Assembly: GCF_900104775.1 (NCBI RefSeq)
Contig: NZ_FNSA01000003.1
Location: 1,984,001-2,048,000, forward strand
Length of the DNA: 64,000 nucleotides
Source: Tsukamurella tyrosinosolvens
GTDB taxonomy: Bacteria; Actinomycetota; Actinomycetes; Mycobacteriales; Mycobacteriaceae
Direction: 5' to 3'
Shown: piece after piece, positions 19,252 through 30,789 of the stretch
Position numbering within the stretch: position 1 is the stretch's first letter
Layout of the letters: the number at the start of each line of letters is the position of its first letter
Made by a program: the position numbers and the translations under genes
The notes under the pieces: generated by a model
Seen by the model: the letters and a program-made list of their open reading frames with translations, nothing else
Told to the model about the DNA's origin: nothing
Database searches by the model: none

Positions 19252-20004
19252 ATGACCCGATTCGCCGGGAAGACCGCGATCGTCACGGGAGCGAGCCGCG
19301 GCATCGGCCTCGCCATCGCGCAGCGGCTGGTGGCCGACGGCGCGAAGGTCGTCATCACGGCCCGCAAGCAGGAGGCGCTCGACGCCGCCGTCGCCGAGCT
19401 GGGTGGCCCCGAGGTCGCCGTGGCCGTGGCCGGTTCGGGGGACGACGAGGCGCATCAGGACCAGGTGATCGCCACCGCGATCGAGACCTTCGGCAGCGCC
19501 GACTTCTTCGTCAACAACACCGGCATCAACCCGGTCTACGGCCCCCTCATGGAGATCGACACCGCGGCCGCGCGCAAGATCTTCGAGGTCAACGTGCTCT
19601 CCACCCTGTCCTGGACCCAGAAGGTCTACGCGGCCTGGCAGAAGGAGCACGGCGGCGCCATCGTCAACGTCGGCTCCGTCGCCGGCCTGCGCCCGGCTCC
19701 CGGCATCGCCTTCTACGGCGTCTCCAAGGCCGCCGTCATCCACCTGACCGAGGAGCTCGCCGTCGAGCTCGGCCCGGACATCCGGGTCAACGCCGTCGCG
19801 CCGGCCGTCGTCAAGACCCGCTTCGCCACCGCCCTGTACGAGGGGCGCGAGGAGCAGGTCTCGGCCGCGTACCCGCTCAAGCGCCTCGGCGTGCCCGACG
19901 ACATCGGCTCGGTCGTCGCCTTCCTCCTCTCGGACGACGCCGCCTGGATGACCGGCCAGACGCTCACCGTCGACGGTGGCGTCCTGCTCACGGGCGGGGT
20001 GTAG
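19252..20004 (+). CDS. SDR-family oxidoreductase, operon gene 1
   Basis: This is a 250-residue classical short-chain dehydrogenase. The NAD(P) site is TGASRGIG (residues 12-19), the fourth-strand motif is NNTG in place of the usual NNAG, and the active site is a serine in NVGSVAG with YGVSKAA (Tyr-x-x-x-Lys). The C-terminal DGGVLLTGG closes the fold. Such enzymes oxidise or reduce hydroxyl/keto groups, and in this setting a hydroxyacyl-CoA or free hydroxy acid is likely. A ribosome-binding site GGAAGGTG precedes the ATG. It is the first gene after operator copy 2 and the next gene starts 3 nt after its stop. Confidence 0.9.
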   Translation: MTRFAGKTAIVTGASRGIGLAIAQRLVADGAKVVITARKQEALDAAVAELGGPEVAVAVAGSGDDEAHQDQVIATAIETFGSADFFVNNTGINPVYGPLMEIDTAAARKIFEVNVLSTLSWTQKVYAAWQKEHGGAIVNVGSVAGLRPAPGIAFYGVSKAAVIHLTEELAVELGPDIRVNAVAPAVVKTRFATALYEGREEQVSAAYPLKRLGVPDDIGSVVAFLLSDDAAWMTGQTLTVDGGVLLTGGV

Positions 20005-20007
20005 GCC

Positions 20008-28287: not shown

Positions 28288-29271
28288 ATGGGAGTCGTCC
28301 ACACCGTCACCGGAGACGTCGACGCCGCCGACCTCGGCGTCACCCTCATGCACGAACACGTCTTCGTGCTCACCCCGGACATCCAGCAGAACTATCCGGA
28401 GGACTTCGGTGACGAGGACGCCCGGGTGGACGACGCCGTTGCCCAGCTGCAGAAGGCGTACGACGCCGGCGTGCGCACCATCGTCGACCCGACGGTCGTC
28501 GGGCTCGGTCGCTACATCCCGCGGATCCAGCGGATCGCCGAGCGCACGCCGGTGCGGATCGTCGCGGCGACGGGCGTCTACACCTACCGCGACGTGCCGC
28601 GCTACTTCATGTACCGCGGCCCCGCGCTGACGGCGATGACGGGGATCGATTTCCCGGATCCCATGGTGGACATGTTCGTCCGCGACATCACCGAGGGCAT
28701 CGGAGACACCGGGGTCAAGGCCGGCATGCTCAAGTGCGCGATCGACCACCACGGCCTCACCGACGGCGTGGAGCGGGTGATGCGGGCAGTCGCGAAGGCG
28801 CACAACGCCACCGGCGTGCCGATCACCGTGCACACGCACCCGGGCTCGGAGACCGGCCTGCTGGTGAAGAAGGTGATGTGCGACGAGGAGGGGGTGGACC
28901 CGAGCCGGATCGTGCTGGGACACAGTGGAGACTCCACCGACGTCGAGCACCTGTCGGTCCTCGCCGACGCCGGCTTCACGCTGGGCTTCGACCGGTTCGG
29001 CATCAATCTGGAGACCACCTTCGAGGCGCGCAACGAGACGCTCATCGAGATGGTGCGCCGCGGCTACACCGAGAAGATCGTGCTCTCGCAGGACGCCTCC
29101 TGCTACATCGACTGGATCGACCCGAACGTCAAGGCGGGCATGCTCCAGTGGCACTACACGCACGTCTTCGACGACGTCTTCCCGTACGTGCTCGAACGCG
29201 GCGTCACCCAGGCGCAGATCGACACCATGCTCGTGGACGTGCCGCGTCGCGTGCTGACGGGAGAGGCGTAG
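28288..29271 (+). CDS. Phosphotriesterase-family amidohydrolase (possible lactonase)
   Basis: This 327-residue TIM-barrel hydrolase has a binuclear metal site. Ligands are visible at every expected place: His22/His24 in MHEHVF, the carboxylated lysine in AGMLK (Lys149), His182 in TVHTHPG, His212 in LGHSG and Asp269 in LSQDAS. Members of this family include phosphotriesterases and lactonases that open gamma- and delta-lactones. Its place directly before an acyl-CoA ligase, in an operon with a hydroxyacyl kinase, argues for lactone hydrolysis giving a hydroxy acid. A 47-nt gap precedes it, the largest in the operon, so an internal promoter is possible. Confidence 0.9.
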   Translation: MGVVHTVTGDVDAADLGVTLMHEHVFVLTPDIQQNYPEDFGDEDARVDDAVAQLQKAYDAGVRTIVDPTVVGLGRYIPRIQRIAERTPVRIVAATGVYTYRDVPRYFMYRGPALTAMTGIDFPDPMVDMFVRDITEGIGDTGVKAGMLKCAIDHHGLTDGVERVMRAVAKAHNATGVPITVHTHPGSETGLLVKKVMCDEEGVDPSRIVLGHSGDSTDVEHLSVLADAGFTLGFDRFGINLETTFEARNETLIEMVRRGYTEKIVLSQDASCYIDWIDPNVKAGMLQWHYTHVFDDVFPYVLERGVTQAQIDTMLVDVPRRVLTGEA

Positions 29272-30789
29272 ATGTCCTTCAACCTGGCGACGATGCTGCG
29301 CGAATCGGCGTCGACCGCGCCCGACGCGCCCGTCCTGTTCTTCGGCGACCGCGAAATCGCCTACCGGGAGATCGACGAGCAGTCCGGTCGGCTCGCGGCC
29401 TCGCTGCTGGCGCGCGGGCTCGTCCCCGGTGACAAGGTCGCCGTTCAGCTGCCGAACCTGCCGGAGTTCGTGCTCGCCTACTTCGGCATTCTCAAGGCGG
29501 GCCTGACCATGGTGCCGCTCAACCCCCTGTTCACCGCGCCGGAGATCGCGTATCACCTCGGCGACAGCGATGCGAAGCTGCTCGTGGCCTCGGACTTCTC
29601 CGCCGAGGCCGCGCTCGCCGGGGCGGGCGAGGCGGGCGTGAGCGACGTGGTGATCGTCTCGCTCGGCGCACCGACCCCGTCGGGCGCGGTCCCGTTCGCC
29701 GACCTGCTGGCGGAGGAGGACACCGGGGAGATCCACCCGACGGGGTCCGACGACACCGCCGTGCTGCTCTACACCTCGGGCACCACCGGGCGGCCGAAGG
29801 GGGCGGAGCTCACGCATTTCGAGCTCTACATGAACTGCACCGTCGCGCCCCAGCTGTTCGGGATGCGCGACGACGACGTCGCGCTCGGCGCCCTCCCGCT
29901 GTTCCACGTCTTCGGCCTGTCGAGTGTGCTCAACGCCGCAGTGCGGTACGGCGGCTCGGTGGCGCTGGTGCCGCGGTTCGAGGCGGAGTCGGTGGTCGAC
30001 GTCATCGAGCGGCGGCGCGTCACGGTGCTCTCCGGCGTGCCGACGATGTACGTGGCGCTCCTGGGTGTCGACACGGCCGGGCGCGACGTGTCGAGCCTGC
30101 GCGCCGCCGTCTCCGGCGGAGCGTCGATCCCCGGCGGCGTGATCCGCGCGTTCGAGGAGAAGTTCCCCGGCCTGGCGATCCTCGAGGGCTACGGCCTTTC
30201 GGAGACCGCGTCGACCGCGACCTTCAACATCAGCGCCGAACAGCGCAAGGTCCTCTCGATCGGCAAGCCCATCTGGGGCGTGCAGATGCGGGCCGTCGAT
30301 CTCGACGGTGCAGAGCTCCCGCCCGGGGCGGACAACATCGGCGAGATCGTGGTTCGCGGGCACAACGTGATGAAGGGCTACTACAAGCGACCCGAGGCGA
30401 CCGCGGAGGCGCTCCGTAACGGCTGGCTGCACACCGGTGACCTGGGTTACCGCGACGAGGACGGCTACTTCTTCATCGTCGACCGGCTCAAGGACCTCGT
30501 GATCCGCGGTGGGTACAACGTGTACCCCCGCGAGGTCGAGGAGGTTCTCTACGCCCACCCGGAGGTGGTCGAGGCGGCCGTCGTGGGCCGCCCCGACGAC
30601 CGGCTGGGGGAGGAGGTCGTCGCCTTCGTCGTACTGCGCCCCGGCGCGAGCGCCGATGCCGCGGCCCTCACCGCGTTCAGCCGGGAGCGCCTGGCCGCGT
30701 ACAAGTACCCCCGTGAGATCCACCTGCTCGCCGAGCTGCCTAAGGGCGGCACCGGCAAGATCCTCAAGCGGGAGCTGCGCGGGCGGTAG
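29272..30789 (+). CDS. Acyl-CoA synthetase (AMP-forming, FadD-like)
   Basis: This is an adenylate-forming ligase of 505 residues. The P-loop is LLYTSGTTGRPKGAE, motif A5 EGYGLSETAS, motif A7 LHTGDLGYRDEDGYFFIVDR, motif A8 LVIRGGYNVYPREVEEVL, and the catalytic lysine lies in GGTGKILKREL near the C-terminus. It activates a carboxylic acid via acyl-AMP to acyl-CoA in the cytoplasm. The ATG follows the phosphotriesterase stop with no gap. As the last gene of the operon, it probably activates the acid released by that hydrolase. The lysine is the usual site of Pat-type acetylation, which could link it to the acuC/pat pair. Confidence 0.94.
   Translation: MSFNLATMLRESASTAPDAPVLFFGDREIAYREIDEQSGRLAASLLARGLVPGDKVAVQLPNLPEFVLAYFGILKAGLTMVPLNPLFTAPEIAYHLGDSDAKLLVASDFSAEAALAGAGEAGVSDVVIVSLGAPTPSGAVPFADLLAEEDTGEIHPTGSDDTAVLLYTSGTTGRPKGAELTHFELYMNCTVAPQLFGMRDDDVALGALPLFHVFGLSSVLNAAVRYGGSVALVPRFEAESVVDVIERRRVTVLSGVPTMYVALLGVDTAGRDVSSLRAAVSGGASIPGGVIRAFEEKFPGLAILEGYGLSETASTATFNISAEQRKVLSIGKPIWGVQMRAVDLDGAELPPGADNIGEIVVRGHNVMKGYYKRPEATAEALRNGWLHTGDLGYRDEDGYFFIVDRLKDLVIRGGYNVYPREVEEVLYAHPEVVEAAVVGRPDDRLGEEVVAFVVLRPGASADAAALTAFSRERLAAYKYPREIHLLAELPKGGTGKILKRELRGR

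Follow-up and report, generated by a model that had tools for sequence, protein, structure and literature searches.

The 64,000-nucleotide stretch of Tsukamurella tyrosinosolvens DNA analysed here (the window) contains an operon in which a lactonase-like hydrolase, an acyl-CoA ligase, a kinase and several acyl-CoA dehydrogenases are encoded side by side, and it raises the question of what such a set of enzymes might degrade. An original prediction, made from the window alone, had proposed the breakdown of gamma-lactones or 4-hydroxy acids by phosphorylation and elimination. Our comparisons point in the same direction, and we put at roughly 80% the probability that a complete route for degrading gamma-lactones and 4-hydroxy acids is encoded here. 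All twelve open reading frames (ORFs) were found on the + strand between positions 19252 and 30789 by an ORF check of the window. Their junctions measure, in order, +3, -4, -4, +11, +27, -1, +1, -4, -4, +47 and 0 nucleotides, and the coordinates thus confirm the predicted same-strand set of twelve genes with five overlaps and six gaps of 0-47 nucleotides. The G+C content at third codon positions (GC3) lies between 0.93 and 0.98 in all twelve. The enzyme families originally named were also matched by Pfam: three short-chain dehydrogenases/reductases (SDRs), a zinc-type/QOR reductase, a HAD protein, a MaoC protein, an APH kinase, three acyl-CoA dehydrogenases (ACADs), a PTE protein and an AMP-binding ligase. 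Genes 1 (19252..20004), 2 (20008..20814) and 5 (22495..23247) were identified as SDRs by family search, the last being FabG-type and proposed as a 3-hydroxyacyl-CoA dehydrogenase, whereas Pfam placed gene 3 (20811..21800) with the QOR-like reductases and gene 6 (23275..23727) with the MaoC hydratases. The roles given below to the MaoC, SDR, QOR and ligase proteins are predictions at the level of the family.

The chemistry of the operon is suggested by genes 7 and 8. Gene 7 (23727..24743) codes for an APH-type kinase whose PDB matches were the kinase domain of ACAD11 (E 4e-55) and the APH proteins 9o56 and 3dxp. Its residues D206, N211 and R163 correspond to D220 and N225 (the catalytic Asp and Asn) and R176 (CoA-contacting) of ACAD11. 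Equivalents of these three residues, together with the helix-C Arg-Glu pair, are kept in all 39 kinases of the loci compared; the helix-C Arg was identified from the wording of the paper, residue 83 of the printed chain not agreeing with the published number R86. Gene 8 (24745..25974) matched the solved ACAD11 at E 2e-138, whereas the next solved dehydrogenases, 4hr3 aside, start at 3e-41. In ACAD10/11 the phosphorylated substrate is held by R626, H634 and R637, with R631 and the catalytic D753 (PMC12440821, 2025; this and the other papers below are cited from excerpts of their text). The corresponding residues of gene 8 are R258, H266, R269, R263 and D385, and the set is kept in 32 of 33 ACAD rows, the remaining row ending with its stretch. 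In ten later, longer stretches the residue sets were kept in 8/8 kinases and 10/10 ACADs. The remaining three dehydrogenases of the locus served as a negative control and do not have the ACAD10/11 set. The kinase and ACAD rows were picked by similarity to the queries, so that these counts describe the uniformity of the type and are no unbiased census. With their catalytic, CoA-contacting and phosphosubstrate residues kept, genes 7 and 8 appear to be of the ACAD10/11-LvaA/LvaC type, as had been proposed, and are predicted to convert 4-hydroxyacyl-CoA to 2-enoyl-CoA via 4-phosphoacyl-CoA.

The entry into such a route is likely to be provided by genes 11 and 12. The closest solved match of the PTE-like gene 11 (28288..29271) was PHP of Mycobacterium tuberculosis (4if2), followed by SsoPox (2vc5). 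Its binuclear metal ligands H22, H24, K149, H182, H212 and D269 correspond to H22, H24, K137, H170, H199 and D256 of SsoPox, and Y97, R223 and W263 of SsoPox are kept as well; we take the former to be metal ligands and the latter lactone contacts in SsoPox. The metal ligands are intact in all but four of 53 PTE rows, the four being the distant loci L152-L154 and locus L052, in which the gene is split (loci and genomes are cited by our L and G numbers). With 57% identity to QsdA, the PTE protein of genome G083 discussed below, gene 11 would hydrolyse lactones, and its candidacy as a PTE-type lactonase is strengthened by the residues. Hydrolysis of organophosphates as the main function of the PTE protein was set aside, its nearest relatives being PHP, SsoPox and QsdA and its gene lying among acyl-CoA genes. 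A PTE protein of this kind is almost missing from the rest of the phylum: at E 1e-70, a search of 198 genomes from across it gave seven with a match, and six of these belong to the same family as Tsukamurella. Gene 12 (29272..30789) is an acyl-CoA ligase by Pfam and NCBIfam and occupies the position of QsdC.

In Rhodococcus erythropolis, the PTE-like lactonase QsdA and the acyl-CoA ligase QsdC are encoded by the qsd operon, which the TetR protein QsdR represses (PMC6476934, PMC6262395). It is required for the use of gamma-caprolactone, the lactone of 4-hydroxyhexanoic acid (PMC6476934). The later fate of the opened chain is given as 'a beta- or omega-oxidation step' (PMC3689677), and the word 'kinase' gave no match in the texts of PMC6262395, PMC6476934 and PMC3689677. 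The frame adjoining the PTE gene of G083 is identical to QsdR (4ZA6) in 186 of 186 residues, and 102 bp past its stop there begins a frame that was judged by eye to be GntR/FadR, the published distance of fadR at the qsd locus being equally 102 bp (PMC6262395). As identity and spacing agree, the PTE protein of G083 is QsdA. The 19 kb that end at this qsdA gene contain, according to tblastn, homologues of all twelve genes, of an MFS transporter and of a thiolase, with identities of 79% (gene 5 SDR), 70% (large FadE), 69% (QOR), 62% (MFS), 59% (ACAD11-type), 54% (MaoC), 52% (small FadE), 49% (each of the SDRs of genes 1 and 2), 43% (ligase), 41% (HAD), 37% (QsdC) and 36% (kinase and thiolase). 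The island of G097 has the same content, while HAD and thiolase are missing from the island stretches of G023 and G110, the FadE pair and thiolase from that of G095, and the FadE pair and HAD from that of G108. For the large FadE, the island contains the best genome-wide match in 4/4 searched genomes of the genus of G083; for the QOR protein it does so in 5/6 genomes, a second cluster of G023 scoring slightly higher. Because the qsd island has them too, the QOR protein and the two further SDRs are likely to belong to the pathway. By analogy, the R. erythropolis locus supports a gamma-lactone as substrate from outside Tsukamurella.

Alternatively, the lactonase might act on acyl-homoserine lactones, opening them for attack or defence, with the other genes only recycling the acyl chain by ordinary beta-oxidation. 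QsdA has been studied for such a role and QsdR responds to homoserine lactone (PMC6476934, PMC6262395), but gamma-caprolactone is used through the qsd operon as well (PMC6476934). Moreover, by established chemistry a kinase and a phospho-eliminating ACAD would be useless for this purpose, because the acyl chain of the signal yields no 4-hydroxyacyl-CoA, and we regard quorum quenching as very improbable.

Genes 9 (25971..27158; top PDB matches 6wy9_A and 6wy8_B) and 10 (27155..28240; top match 6wy8_A, the partner chain) are the large and small subunits of a predicted two-subunit FadE, an assignment that agrees with their best matches being partner chains of 6wy8/6wy9. The best NCBIfam-type model for the small subunit is IpdE2, and the 6wy8/6wy9 and IpdE2 enzymes presumably act on steroid intermediates. 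The substrate might therefore be a bulky terpenoid or steroid-derived lactone, with the FadE pair handling the ring system. However, with E values of 1e-20 and 7e-39 the similarity is remote, family searches recognised neither a ring-cleaving enzyme nor a monooxygenase among the twelve genes, and the island of R. erythropolis goes with a short branched lactone (PMC6476934). The islands of G095 and G108 lack the pair, which is thus not essential to the core, and a bulky lactone appears quite unlikely to us.

The conservation of the operon was then considered within Tsukamurella and beyond. The ten nearest named loci of the gene 7 kinase are all from Tsukamurella (86-96% identity), and 8 of 10 named Tsukamurella loci have the full set of twelve genes, genes 10-12 likewise being part of the operon in 8/10. 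Gene 12 is missing from strain TY48 (L046) and genes 9-12 from T. asaccharolytica (L040), which offers a natural comparison strain. In Tsukamurella sp. PLM1 (L052:14555-15530), counted among the eight loci with the full set, the lactonase gene is split over two frames, with pieces of 97% and 91%, by either a genuine loss or a sequencing error. Outside the genus, a sample of 121 genomes of the family was searched at E 1e-40 for the lactonase and E 1e-90 for gene 8. The lactonase was found in 48 of these genomes (50 matches) and a gene 8 match in at least 111. At least 12 of 43 non-Tsukamurella lactonase loci have an ACAD11-type gene within 12 kb, where 0.32 would be expected; the P value of this comparison treats the genomes as independent, although they are not. 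The twelve are a lower bound, since some contigs are short and the counts come from the matches listed. The linked loci span six genera, and the kinase is present in the fetched stretch of 11 of the 12, the exception being G090. An arrangement restricted to Tsukamurella was rejected on account of this linkage in other genera and of the qsd island. In nine loci an MFS homologue (58-62%) is found no more than 4 kb from the lactonase gene.

A tree of 59 kinases places the lactonase-linked rows in two separate well-supported clades, where they make up 10 of the 11 rows of the Tsukamurella clade and 12 of the 15 of a clade of other genera. The lactonase-link label changes at least five times in this tree and four times in a 52-row tree that left out the qsd-island kinases of G083 and G097. 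The association of lactonase and kinase must have arisen at least twice or been lost repeatedly, as the two clades and the label changes indicate. Locus L131 (G065) has the kinase, the two-subunit FadE and the ACAD11-type gene together, with no lactonase in its 19-kb stretch.

Gene 4 (21797..22483) is a HAD protein by Pfam, and its motif and neighbours suggest a partner of the kinase similar to the HAD domain of ACAD10. It has DYG (D19, G21) where HAD phosphatases have DxD, while the Ser, the Lys and the Asp-Asp motif are kept. The HAD domain of ACAD10 keeps the first Asp only, has negligible phosphatase activity and restrains the kinase (PMC11342911), and according to PMC12440821 the lva operon has nothing that corresponds to it. 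Gene 4 was likened to that domain by the description of its motif; its best NCBIfam model, TIGR02247 (epoxide hydrolase N-terminal domain-like), stayed below the cut-off (91.5 of 125.4 bits). DxG was found in 23/23 HAD rows and in 14/14 further HADs. Loss of the second Asp is by itself no proof of inactivity, since YihX of E. coli, an active enzyme, likewise lacks it. Animal ACAD10 joins a HAD, a kinase and an ACAD domain in one protein, and here each of the three has a gene of its own. A HAD homologue (E 1e-20) occurs in 19 of the 121 family genomes, in 18 of them with a kinase, ACAD11-type or lactonase gene no more than about 8 kb away, and in G081 with an SDR, a thiolase and MaoC as its only neighbours; the order HAD, kinase, ACAD in G001 and G032 matches that of ACAD10. 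Phylum-wide, a HAD of this kind was found in 34/198 genomes. Among the best 19 of 38 places (own excluded; raw counts), 11 show a kinase of this type no more than 1.5 kb from the HAD gene, one (L173) has an SDR, MaoC and an ACAD11-type gene and no kinase, and in seven no query gene was detected, some of these lying close to contig ends. Outside the best 19, the kinase lies between HAD and ACAD in G280, and an ACAD 4 kb from the HAD, with no kinase, was seen in G244. In longer stretches from the phylum the motifs are kept in 12/12 kinases, 7/7 ACADs and 14/14 HADs (one HAD having Thr for Ser). Judged from motif and neighbours, the HAD protein is no bystander and resembles the third domain of ACAD10. 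In L192 (G180) an SDR-HAD-MaoC-ACAD11-type cluster was observed, with no kinase recognised in its 17-kb stretch.

The deposited T. tyrosinosolvens record L218 annotates the same twelve genes, the sole difference being a later HAD start. This start, equal to 21878, would remove motif I (DYGGVLT), and the GTG at 21797 is the better one because the D[YF]GG motif is found in 23/23 rows. In L218 (NZ_LR134470.1), from T. tyrosinosolvens NCTC13231, the operon forms part of a circular 55-kb sequence labelled 'plasmid 28'. As the operon of the window lies on a contig of several megabases, that label may denote an assembly fragment. A search of plasmids gave six records, among them Tsukamurella (annotated) and Embleya (a stretch without annotation), and a PTE protein identical to gene 11 is present in the T. 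tyrosinosolvens record.

The control unit is larger than the span originally predicted and includes a thiolase gene and a divergent tetR-fadE pair. The TetR-family regulator (17049..17663, - strand; PF00440 and PF17932), proposed as the repressor of the unit, is followed by a conventional-type acyl-CoA dehydrogenase (15873..17030, - strand; PF00441/PF02770/PF02771) from which the ACAD10/11 residues are absent. The acetyl-CoA acyltransferase, or thiolase (17832..19049, + strand; NF005890 above cut-off; start as in the L218 annotation), is proposed for the last step. The perfect palindrome CTAAGCGAGCGCTTAG lies ahead of it at 17786..17801, and a second perfect copy is found ahead of gene 1 at 19211..19226. 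These are the only two perfect copies of CTAAGCGNNCGCTTAG in the 5.28-Mb genome, and the two sites of the window (four matches, both strands) compare with 0.01 expected. The thiolase copy is perfect in 10/10 named Tsukamurella loci and the gene 1 copy present with at most one mismatch in 7/10, which upholds the proposal of an operator linking the thiolase with the operon. In L045, L046 and L052, where no gene 1 copy was found at one mismatch or fewer, the starts of thiolase and gene 1 are 1.22-1.23 kb apart, and a single operator may serve both because the thiolase nearly abuts gene 1.

Beyond the operon lie an alpha/beta hydrolase gene (30842..31774, - strand; PF12146; start as in the L218 annotation), possibly a second lactonase or an esterase, and an MFS transporter gene (31948..33333, + strand) of the metabolite/H+ symporter type according to Pfam and NCBIfam, proposed as importer. 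Both probably belong to the control unit as well. The interval between them contains an imperfect operator with two mismatches (31849..31864), one of three further such sites in the genome. Taken alone it is weak, given the 32 matches of a reversed control pattern; the stronger argument is that a site stands at this place in each of the eight named Tsukamurella loci whose MFS gene was found. Elsewhere, sites with at most two mismatches were found ahead of the cluster in L047, L048, L050, L053, L125, L129 and L130 and between two SDR genes in L131; none was found at this threshold in L049, L051 and L126-L128. Such sites alone prove little, since the reversed pattern also gave 11 matches across the 23 loci of the first comparison. 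L053, L125, L129, L130 and L131 have TetR homologues (54-64%) at most about 9 kb from the kinase. Control of the QsdR type was rejected: only a 26-residue stretch (E 0.007) and a 13-residue stretch (E 3.9) were matched between QsdR and the two TetR proteins of the window. Hairpins are predicted on the + strand in the gap between thiolase and operon (19066..19112; -38.6 kcal/mol, z -7.1) and past the operon end (30795..30840; -33.0 kcal/mol, z -4.4), both unflagged by the terminator scan. A scan for promoters and terminators gave no promoter-like site and one terminator-like site, inside gene 1, which is fewer than in shuffles. Past the transporter, at 33386-38990 of the window, lie genes for a second TetR protein, a second acyl-CoA ligase and a fused biotin carboxylase/carboxyltransferase of 1058 residues, possibly a further acyl-CoA unit.

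Several observations weigh against a complete lactone route. Every reaction in Tsukamurella is read from homologues, and the kinase, ACAD, HAD and PTE proteins reach no NCBIfam equivalog cut-off. C258 of SsoPox is replaced by Ser in gene 11. The published work on gamma-caprolactone proposed beta- or omega-oxidation (PMC3689677). The TetR regulator of the operon is not QsdR-like, and of 11 lactonase-type stretches from other genera just one (L106) has the operator, with two mismatches. Identity between the kinases of the two island types is no higher than 35-39%, and they are not orthologues. Of the 43 lactonase loci outside Tsukamurella, 31 have, among the matches listed, no ACAD11-type gene at a distance of up to 12 kb. 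The tree places every lactonase-linked kinase from outside this genus in a single clade, so that the many linked genera may represent one ancient or spreading island with few origins. Finally, the fetched stretches of Gordonia and Mycolicibacterium have an orthologous kinase-ACAD core, with SDRs in both and MaoC also in Gordonia, yet no lactonase, and T. asaccharolytica keeps kinase and ACAD without lactonase, ligase and FadE pair. The core can thus use 4-hydroxyacyl-CoA from other sources, and it might be that its substrate comes from levulinate or other 4-oxo acids, or from 4-hydroxy acids of lipid peroxidation, the lactonase being a late and occasional entry. We consider this unlikely, however, in view of the place of genes 10-12 within the operon of most Tsukamurella loci, the joining of lactonase to kinase and ACAD in two kinase clades, and the qsd island.

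We therefore retain the route for gamma-lactones and 4-hydroxy acids, the originally proposed sequence of lactone, hydroxy acid, CoA ester, phosphoacyl-CoA and enoyl-CoA having found residue-level or comparative support for its key steps. The substrate would be imported by the MFS protein, its ring opened to the 4-hydroxy acid by the gene 11 lactonase, and the acid converted to 4-hydroxyacyl-CoA by the gene 12 ligase. With ATP, the gene 7 kinase would place a phosphate onto the 4-hydroxyl to give 4-phosphoacyl-CoA, from which the gene 8 dehydrogenase, with a redox-cycling FAD, would expel the phosphate to yield 2-enoyl-CoA. MaoC (gene 6), the FabG-type SDR (gene 5) and the thiolase could then finish beta-oxidation, and later turns, or chains with substituents, would fall to the FadE pair (genes 9-10). 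Like LvaD, one of the other SDRs may convert 4-oxo and 4-hydroxy acyl-CoA into each other. The HAD protein, as the counterpart of the ACAD10 HAD domain, would probably check the kinase or clear stalled phosphoacyl-CoA, and the TetR protein would repress the thiolase, the operon and probably the transporter through one palindrome. What the comparisons show directly is the gene content, the kept residues, the copies of the operator, the recurrence of the set in other genera and its match with the qsd island; the reactions, the chain length of the substrate, the binding of TetR and the role of the HAD protein are predictions.

The two parts of this route are already known apart, the chemistry from the lva operon and ACAD10/11 and the front end from qsd. 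No paper joining the qsd front end with ACAD10/11-type chemistry was found in our searches of the open-access literature, nor, in the excerpts of that literature, a mention of the HAD-kinase gene couple as an unfused half of ACAD10. The original statement that the set is undescribed in Mycobacteriales, the order to which Rhodococcus belongs, thus holds in that literature for the joined pathway and fails for the front end, known as qsdA-qsdC. Taken jointly, we propose, tentatively and at somewhat below even odds, that qsd is the front end of a phosphate-expulsion 4-hydroxyacyl-CoA pathway found as one operon in Tsukamurella, that the HAD-kinase couple of Actinomycetota is the unfused half of ACAD10, and that the brake of ACAD10 goes back to a bacterial regulator or phosphatase of this pathway that was once a protein of its own. 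The proposal links the gamma-lactone and quorum-quenching catabolism of bacteria with the newly found ACAD10/11 chemistry.

Compared with known systems, gene 11 shares metal ligands and lactone-contacting residues with SsoPox (2vc5) and M. tuberculosis PHP (4if2), and to our knowledge neither of these belongs to a 4-hydroxyacyl-CoA operon. The qsd locus has, like genes 11-12 with their gap of 0, a lactonase followed by an acyl-CoA ligase under TetR control, but its genes lie on both strands in another order, its TetR is unrelated at full length and its kinase is of another clade; the Tsukamurella operon offers a testable answer to the fate of 4-hydroxyhexanoate past QsdA and QsdC in R. erythropolis. 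The lva operon of Pseudomonas putida shares the kinase, the phospho-eliminating ACAD and the acyl-CoA ligase for 4-hydroxyacyl-CoA, whereas according to PMC12440821 it has no HAD counterpart, its descriptions in the excerpts of PMC12440821 and PMC11342911 mention no lactonase, and the Tsukamurella operon adds beta-oxidation genes. Animal ACAD10 (HAD, kinase and ACAD) and ACAD11 (kinase and ACAD) share the kept residues and, in ACAD10, a HAD with the first Asp only (PMC12440821, PMC11342911). In contrast to these fused proteins, Tsukamurella has separate polypeptides, with lactonase and ligase in the same operon. It also offers a bacterial setting for the study of the unexplained ACAD10 HAD domain as a gene of its own.

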